This document shows, piece after piece, positions 37,660-39,121 of a stretch of 64,000 nt of DNA; within the stretch, counting starts at the first letter, position 1; every line of letters begins with the position of its first letter. Made by a program: the position numbers and the translations under genes. The DNA lies in assembly GCA_023957775.1 (NCBI GenBank), contig JAMLGR010000012.1:62001-126000 (forward strand), read 5' to 3'. This stretch comes from Fimbriimonadaceae bacterium (GTDB lineage Bacteria > Armatimonadota > Fimbriimonadia > Fimbriimonadales > Fimbriimonadaceae). The notes beneath the pieces are model-generated. The model was not told the DNA's origin. It saw only the letters and a list, made by a program, of their open reading frames with translations, and did not search any database.

Positions 37660-38190
37660 TCAGGGTTCGGGAGAGCCGAGCGATCGCCAGTGGGCCAACG
37701 CCTCCGAGCACGTCGGGCACAGGGACCATTCGGACATTTCGGGGTCGTTGGGGCGGGTTCCTGGACTCACCCACTCCTCCCCCATCTGGGTGAATAGGCA
37801 CACCGAGCACGTGGGAATCCGGCGGCCTGGCCGCGGGGTCGGACGTTCGGCCATGGCCGACTCTTCCAGCAGGACCCCCTGGTAACGCAGCACGCCGTCG
37901 TCCAGGGCCTCGATCTCCAACTCCATCAGCCGCACCCGATCGGCGGAGTCGCAACGAAAAGGGACGATGACCGTCCGCTTGGTTCTCCGTACGCCGGCTG
38001 CGATTTCGCGATAGAGCTGGACGAGGGTCGGGTCGCCAAAGAAGCGGTAGAGCTCTTCGCCGATCACGCTCTCCGGCAGGTGCGGCGCCCCGTTTTCGAT
38101 GGCGAACTGGCACCAGTTGGGATCGACCTGCAATATGCGGTCGTCGGCGTCGACGAGGTAGGTGTACCGTGTTTCCGGATGGTCTTCCAC
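37660..38190 (-). CDS. PAS-domain protein with C-terminal CxxC pair
   Basis: 176 residues from the GTG at 38190, whose first base is the last base of the VOC gene stop (TAGTG). Residues 8-110 look like a PAS fold: YTYLVDADDRILQVDPNW, then YRFFGDPTLVQLYREIAAGV. The C-terminus has CSVC and CPTC separated by about 26 residues, suitable for one zinc. No kinase, cyclase or DNA-binding output domain is attached, so it probably signals by protein contact. Third gene of the operon led by the Sec-thioredoxin, hinting at redox sensing. Confidence 0.7.
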   Translation of the reverse strand: MEDHPETRYTYLVDADDRILQVDPNWCQFAIENGAPHLPESVIGEELYRFFGDPTLVQLYREIAAGVRRTKRTVIVPFRCDSADRVRLMELEIEALDDGVLRYQGVLLEESAMAERPTPRPGRRIPTCSVCLFTQMGEEWVSPGTRPNDPEMSEWSLCPTCSEALAHWRSLGSPEP

Positions 38191-38567
38191 TACAGGTCGG
38201 CCTTCTTGACCCCTAACTGAACGGCTTGGATCGGGTTCCCGTCGGGATCCCGAAAGGTGAGCGAAGTGCCTTGGGGAAGCTCGTAGTAGTCCGCATCGAC
38301 GTCGGCGCCGGCGGCGACGAGCTTCTCGCGCAACGCCTTCACGTCCGGGGTTCGAACACCGACGACCCATCCCTTCTTGGCCACCGCATACGGGGCGGAC
38401 GCCCCTTCGAGGGGAGGGTGCAGGCCCAGCGCCCCGCCCTCCAGCTCGAAGTGCGACCAGTACGGACTCACGACCGCGGGCTTCAGCCCGAGCACGTCGC
38501 GGTAGAAGGCCACCGAGCGATCCATGTCGGATGTCTGGCACCACGTGGTCTCAAACCCCGCGATCAC
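38190..38567 (-). CDS. VOC family (glyoxalase/bleomycin-resistance fold) protein
   Basis: 125 residues from GTG, overlapping the stop of the Sec-thioredoxin gene (GTGA). Two beta-alpha-beta-beta-beta modules: the first begins MIAGFETTWCQTSDMDRSVA and FYRDVLGLKPAVV, the second includes VVGVRTPDVKALREKL and ends SLTFRDPDGNPIQAVQLG. Metal-binding positions are plausible but unverified. Members isomerise, cleave or bind small molecules, and the function here is unknown. Confidence 0.88.
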   Translation of the reverse strand: MIAGFETTWCQTSDMDRSVAFYRDVLGLKPAVVSPYWSHFELEGGALGLHPPLEGASAPYAVAKKGWVVGVRTPDVKALREKLVAAGADVDADYYELPQGTSLTFRDPDGNPIQAVQLGVKKADL

Positions 38568-39121
38568 CGAAGCCCGCCTCTCTTTTGCGCCTTGAGAAAC
38601 GCCTCCAACTTGTCGAGTTCGGCCTTGGTGGCGCGGGGCGCCCCTTTGCGAACCATCTCCATGAAGTGCGCGATCTCTTCGGGTTCCATCGGATGCCCGA
38701 TGTTGCCGCCCTTCTCGCCGGGGCGGATCGAGTTGAGGATCATCTTGCCGTCCGCGTCGAGCATCGCGGTGAACGGCAATCCGGCTTTGTCTCCCCCAAG
38801 GTCGGCCATCAGCTTGGCCCCTCCTGGGTTCTCGGTAGCCTTCTTGTCCCCGCTTTCCAAGACGGTGACATACACTCGTACGAAGTATCGATCGAAAAAC
38901 GGTTTGAACTGCTCCTGGTTCAAAACGGCATCCAGCCGTTTGCACCACCCTCACCACGAGGCGTGGAAGATGACGAAAAGGCTCTTCTTCTGGGCGCGGG
39001 CCTCTTGCTTGGCCGCCGCAAGGAGAACGTCCGTGCTCTTGGGCTTGGAAGGCGTCTGGCTCATCGCGCTTCCCACAAGGACCAGCAACACGGCGAGCGT
39101 GGAGAGTGGGCGGATCTTCAT
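38564..39121 (-). CDS. candidate selenoprotein: secreted thioredoxin-like protein with UGWC active site
   Basis: 186 codons from the ATG at 39121, with TGA at 38953-38951 as codon 57. Signal peptide: MKIRPLSTLAVLLVLVGSAM. The thioredoxin-like core reads KSLFVIFHASW, then UGA, then GWCKRLD, so the UGA replaces the first Cys of a CGWC redox motif and the second Cys (residue 60) is intact. The frame continues to a normal stop, ending LEAFLKAQKRGGLR. A 7-bp SECIS-type hairpin follows at 16-nt spacing. It probably acts as an extracytoplasmic thiol oxidoreductase. First gene of an operon with VOC and PAS genes; a leaderless TAAAAT box lies 6 nt upstream. Confidence 0.82.
38923..38941 (-). promoter_or_regulatory. 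putative bacterial SECIS element
   Basis: On the minus strand AAACGGC (38941-38935), loop TGGAT (38934-38930) and GCCGTTT (38929-38923) form a perfect 7-bp stem. The loop starts 16 nt after the UGA and has G as its second base, at the lower limit of the published bacterial SECIS spacing. Confidence 0.7.

Follow-up and report, generated by a model that had tools for sequence, protein, structure and literature searches.

A predicted Thioredoxin_7-like selenoprotein with an in-frame UGA at its redox motif in a Fimbriimonadaceae bacterium

The gene and its in-frame UGA

In a thioredoxin-like gene of a Fimbriimonadaceae bacterium, a TGA stands where the first Cys of a CGWC motif would be expected, which raises the question of whether this codon is translated as selenocysteine (Sec), is read as an ordinary amino acid or ends translation. 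The gene lies in the window, that is, the whole stretch of 64,000 nucleotides that was analyzed. According to our analysis, it very probably encodes an exported thioredoxin-fold oxidoreductase in which UGA-encoded Sec takes the place of the nucleophilic Cys, as far as nucleotide and protein sequences can tell, and assembly error, decay and a reassigned genetic code are very unlikely explanations of the TGA. Since the UGA is conserved, bears a SECIS hairpin, coincides with the redox Cys and occurs in a genome with the complete Sec machinery, the gene counts as a selenoprotein gene by the usual computational criteria. Its features are as follows.

38564..39121, minus strand: candidate selenoprotein gene encoding an exported thioredoxin-like (PF13899) protein of 185 residues, with Sec at position 57 and a terminal TGA
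39056..39121, minus strand: probable N-terminal export signal MKIRPLSTLAVLLVLVGSAMSQ, judged by eye, with a modelled helix at residues 6-18
38951..38953, minus strand: in-frame TGA, codon 57, predicted selenocysteine and first redox residue of UGWC
38942..38944, minus strand: TGC, codon 60, resolving cysteine of UGWC

The gene is read on the minus strand from 39121 to 38564, the preliminary description of this DNA having given no strand. When the UGA is left open, translation yields 185 residues with MKIRPLSTLAVLLVLVGSAMSQ at the N terminus, and the only stops in the gene are the interior TGA at codon 57 and the terminal TGA at codon 186. The preliminary description had placed the sole interruption at the first Cys of CGWC, within FHASW-UGA-GWCKRLD, with the second Cys intact and the coding continuing on both sides; translation bears this out, as codon 60 is TGC (38944-38942) and the frame is open on either side of the TGA in the window gene and conserved in its relatives. 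In this frame, the mechanical list of open reading frames (ORFs) holds merely a 119-residue piece downstream of the UGA. Gene callers that take UGA as a stop would split the candidate selenoprotein gene and lose its catalytic site.

Protein family, fold and predicted function

With the UGA read as Cys, the protein matches Pfam PF13899 (Thioredoxin_7) at 43.8 bits, the gathering cut-off being 27, and PF13098 (25.8 bits versus 27) and PF00085 fall narrowly below their cut-offs; a search of the window protein against NCBIfam returned no family above cut-off. The motif FHASWCGWC is invariant in a 53-row alignment in which the window protein is likewise read as Cys. The structure model is a confident one with a thioredoxin fold (mean pLDDT 92.3, pTM 0.84). 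At the head of its Foldseek ranking stands DsbH (2ju5), followed by 3fk8, a disulfide isomerase of Xylella; C-terminal domains of DsbD come lower in the first twenty. By this model, DsbH and DsbD-gamma are structurally nearest, as weak matches (TM-scores of 0.3-0.65). These fold neighbours, together with an N terminus that looks signal-like by eye, indicate an exported thiol-disulfide oxidoreductase, and we predict the window protein to be an exported oxidoreductase of the Thioredoxin_7 (PF13899) family, whose extracytoplasmic Sec-Cys pair would most likely reduce or exchange disulfides much as DsbH or DsbD-gamma does.

It is conceivable, albeit rather unlikely, that Sec is translated and that the protein serves mainly as an oxidase or isomerase, or in the handling of peroxides or metals, instead of as a disulfide reductase. 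PDI chains stand high in the sequence search, and selenothiol chemistry suits several reactions, but the best structural neighbours include DsbH and the C-terminal domains of DsbD, at a similarity too weak to fix the direction of the reaction. As to the disulfide-reducing or -exchanging role that we favour, DsbH, the top Foldseek match, is a thioredoxin-like disulfide reductase with a Cys pair. The window model resembles it at TM-scores of 0.46/0.58 and 20% identity, and the window protein scores 24.5 bits with the DsbH family NF043050, whose cut-off is 190.

Relatives with UGA or Cys in the same column

The contig scan kept 80 of 299 loci (L017-L096) as encoding a relative of the window protein. 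They come from Fimbriimonadaceae, other Armatimonadota, Bacteroidota and Acidobacteriota, belong to the same family with the CGWC motif and, in the 52 of the 80 that were aligned, are 34-49% identical to the window protein. All 80 have a Cys codon in place of the UGA, in a scan that was biased to Cys forms because FHASWCGW was among the search words.

The phylum search detected a homologue at E <= 1e-12 in 77 of 291 genomes. Eighty rows were read, five of which scored below 200 and were left out of the 75-row hairpin count reported below, namely, the paralogues with TGA L134, L135 and L137 and the Cys rows L133 and L136. Among the 75 homologue rows scoring >= 200, the column holds TGA in seven and TGC or TGT in 68, so that, in answer to the alignment check suggested in the preliminary description, only Cys or TGA occurs in the homologue rows read. 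The TGA rows are those of the host genome G000 and of G006, G037, G059, G060, G122 and G150, and these genomes are spread over four family groups (f1, f2, f10 and f12). The proteins of the UGA relatives are 42-54% identical to the window protein, with coding sequence on both sides of the TGA. Since six further assemblies have TGA in this column too, a local sequencing error is excluded.

A DNA word for W-UGA-G-W-C-K occurs at 13 places in 12 of the 291 phylum genomes, and the reversed control word at 1. Five of these matches belong to the window gene family (L185, L186, L187, L188 and L192), seven represent a second UGWC family described below, and L182 looks like a chance match; the copies in G122 and G150 deviate from the word and were found by the homologue search instead.

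The gene selA exceeds its cut-off in 60 of the 113 genomes of the class and in 11 of the 19 further phylum genomes that hold a homologue. Among the 77 homologue genomes, it is present in 7/7 with UGA versus 43/70 others (Fisher p 0.042, with relatedness uncorrected and with G014, G130, G133 and G134 scored as non-UGA from 'none' stop entries, not from codon reading), a modest association that we regard as supportive only.

A predicted SECIS hairpin goes with the UGA form

Immediately downstream of the UGA, the following elements were recognized.

38923..38941, minus strand: predicted bacterial SECIS upper hairpin with a 7-bp stem and the loop UGGAU (38934-38930)
38916..38947, minus strand: extended SECIS hairpin including the lower stem UGGU/ACCA

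The 7-bp hairpin, the loop UGGAU with G in second position and the 16-nt spacing between the UGA and the start of the loop are all present in the sequence as previously described (AAACGGC-UGGAU-GCCGUUU, stem of 7, loop of 5, -9.0 kcal/mol). With the lower stem UGGU/ACCA included, 44 nt reach a minimum free energy (MFE) of -14.5 kcal/mol, at a z of only -1.81. The bacterial SECIS model, as set out in the accessible part of PMC13188914, has a loop of 3-9 nt, a stem of 4-16 bp, G in the first two loop positions, a spacing of 16-37 nt and an MFE of <= -7.5 kcal/mol; the window hairpin conforms to it, its spacing being the lower limit of the model. When the 20 codons after the UGA were synonymously recoded, as good a model-fitting hairpin arose in only 2 of 2000 recodings, and for six of the seven UGA genes synonymous recoding alone equals the observed hairpin in ~1-6% of trials.

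Under one rule throughout, a model-fitting hairpin of <= -7.5 kcal/mol is found in 6/7 TGA rows versus 0/68 Cys rows, and the two sets differ in hairpin strength (Mann-Whitney p 6e-5, relatedness uncorrected); the bacterial-model hairpin thus goes with the UGA form. In the seventh TGA row, L105, the stem is interrupted by one mismatch, and 45 nt fold at -8.2. Two types of hairpin can be distinguished, one with a UGGAU or UGGAC loop 16 nt after the UGA (G000, G006, G122 and G150) and one with an AGUU loop 22 nt after it (G037, G059 and G060). Both sides have changed in 2/7 pairs of the UGGAY type and in 1/8 pairs of the AGUU type, the slid controls giving 0 or 1 double change; the observed score was reached by 42/500 shuffles of the UGGAY set and 163/500 of the AGUU set, and we take this covariation as supportive only because the samples are four and three sequences, respectively. 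The Rfam family RF00031 (SECIS_1), a model of the eukaryote-type SECIS, had no match in the genome but matched 0/14 controls likewise, so that its silence carries no weight.

In light of these data, it is highly improbable that the TGA is a true stop, brought into an ordinary CGWC thioredoxin gene by a nonsense mutation or a sequencing error. TGA is one base away from TGC and TGT, and most homologues have Cys at this place, but six other genomes have TGA at the same codon of genes that continue to code on both sides of it, hairpins of the SECIS model go with TGA only, and the window gene is free of any other interior stop.

The preliminary description had further argued against decay from the position of the gene at the head of an overlapping operon with VOC and PAS genes, which we annotate as follows.

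38190..38567, minus strand: VOC/glyoxalase-family gene (Pfam PF00903, 43.1 bits), overlapping downstream, whose GTG start overlaps the terminal TGA
37660..38190, minus strand: third overlapping ORF, labelled PAS in the preliminary description

The overlap between the candidate gene and the VOC gene (GTGA) and the Glyoxalase assignment of the latter hold, but Pfam does not confirm the PAS label, the third ORF having no match at E <= 0.001. Around seven relatives, six with UGA and one with Cys (loci of 1.7-3.5 kb), tblastn gave no match to the VOC neighbour at E <= 1. The operon argument against decay is weakened by the lack of a VOC match in the short flanks of the six UGA relatives and by the unconfirmed PAS label.

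Sec machinery and genetic code of the host genome

The host genome (3.5 Mb in 27 contigs, 96.6% complete) contains all four of the genes selA, selB, selC and selD, a search for which had been recommended in the preliminary description. The scores are 504.8 bits for selA (cut-off, 267.9), 365.5 bits for a full-length selB (cut-off, 242.25; positions 2-579 of 581), 349.9 bits for selD (cut-off, 125) and 76.5 bits for tRNA-Sec (gathering cut-off, 47), which ARAGORN reports as tRNA-SeC with the anticodon tca. The GC content of these loci, 0.64-0.67, is similar to that of the window, 0.659. One in-frame TGA interrupts selD itself (locus L097, 1498-2490; G000:C4) and lies in CAG-U-ATK, in agreement with the UxxK motif that Table 1 of PMC13188914 gives for SelD selenoproteins. 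Since selD contains a UGA, the supply of selenophosphate in this genome would in turn require the decoding of Sec.

Genome-wide reassignment of UGA to an ordinary amino acid, e.g., Trp or Gly, could account for an in-frame UGA that is evidently translated, but we give it next to no chance. The gene ends in a TGA that overlaps the next start, and TGA terminates 19 of the 44 long window ORFs selected by GC3, which makes UGA otherwise a normal stop. Moreover, the column is otherwise Cys and not Trp or Gly, and the genome carries a tRNA-Sec with the anticodon UCA along with the enzymes that serve it. Under the Sec reading, SelB with Sec-tRNA(Sec) would bind the hairpin just 3' of UGA-57 during translation, and Sec would be inserted at UGA-57 to give FHASW-U-GWC; we infer this insertion, together with the export of the protein and the direction in which its redox reaction runs.

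Probable exchange of Sec and Cys within the family

In a tree of 74 rows, from which rows below 230 were left out, the seven UGA rows need five state changes, a rough count, and at least three changes are forced by well-supported branches, the bootstraps being unsettled. The window protein pairs with that of G006 (86/91). Repeated exchange, of Sec for Cys or of Cys for Sec, is thus probable in this family. L101, a Cys form from G038, whose genus label is that of G037, has at nearly the same place a hairpin CUCGAU-GUUUUC-AUCGAG of -5.3 kcal/mol, which may be the relic of a lost SECIS. We advance only tentatively, as somewhat more doubtful than probable, a fuller scenario of at least three Sec/Cys swaps, in which the SECIS would have arisen independently at two places with two loops (UGGAY at 16 nt and AGUU at 22 nt) and L101, a Cys form related to the AGUU group, would have ceased only recently to be a selenoprotein and would still carry the relic of its SECIS. 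With Sec, Cys and possible relic-SECIS forms side by side, this small family offers a usable system for the gain and loss of Sec.

Comparison with known selenoproteins

A 2026 review inventories 119 selenoprotein families or subfamilies (PMC13188914), and PF13899 is absent from the accessible text of that inventory, whose nearest entries there are the PF13098 'thiol:disulfide interchange protein' with UxxC and the CxxU Trx7/PDZ protein. The window protein shares with the former, as listed in Table 1 of that review, a thioredoxin-like domain, an N-terminal redox Sec and the UxxC motif, here UGWC, but is set apart by profile score, falling below PF13098 and above PF13899 cut-offs as given above. 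The Trx7/PDZ selenoprotein (NF041199) has the Thioredoxin_7 (pfam13899) domain in common with it, according to the accessible part of PMC9312934, and differs in having CxxU plus, by its name, a PDZ domain, whereas the window protein has UxxC and scores 21.2 bits with NF041199, whose cut-off is 300.

The accessible part of the deep-Sep paper PMC12013277 makes no mention of thioredoxin or the phylum, and in PMC4807772 the accessible mentions of the phylum relate to genes for sulfatase and fucosidase and to the colours of a tree. In the non-subscription literature searched, we found no report of an Armatimonadota selenoprotein, although annotation in protein databases is possible. The window protein is predicted to be of a conventional selenoprotein type, previously unreported in the literature searched. 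With it, a little-studied lineage gains a predicted selenoprotein that is well supported, together with evidence that Sec decoding is an active trait there.

Other UGA-containing thioredoxin-like genes

The second UGWC family comprises L135 / L189 in the host genome (G000:C1:57647-57664, minus strand), L180, L181, L183, L184, L190 and L191. Its proteins join a TPR-like C-terminal part to a thioredoxin domain (PF13098, 64.3 bits), and in seven phylum genomes, that of the host included, UGA takes the place of the first Cys codon. A hairpin that fits the bacterial SECIS model is lacking in six of the seven and reaches only -4.8 kcal/mol in the other; the SECIS of this family may be atypical. In two further thioredoxin-like genes, L134 (G035) and L137 (G066), the position of the first Cys is likewise occupied by an in-frame TGA, within ADW-UGA-GFC and AEW-UGA-HWC, respectively.
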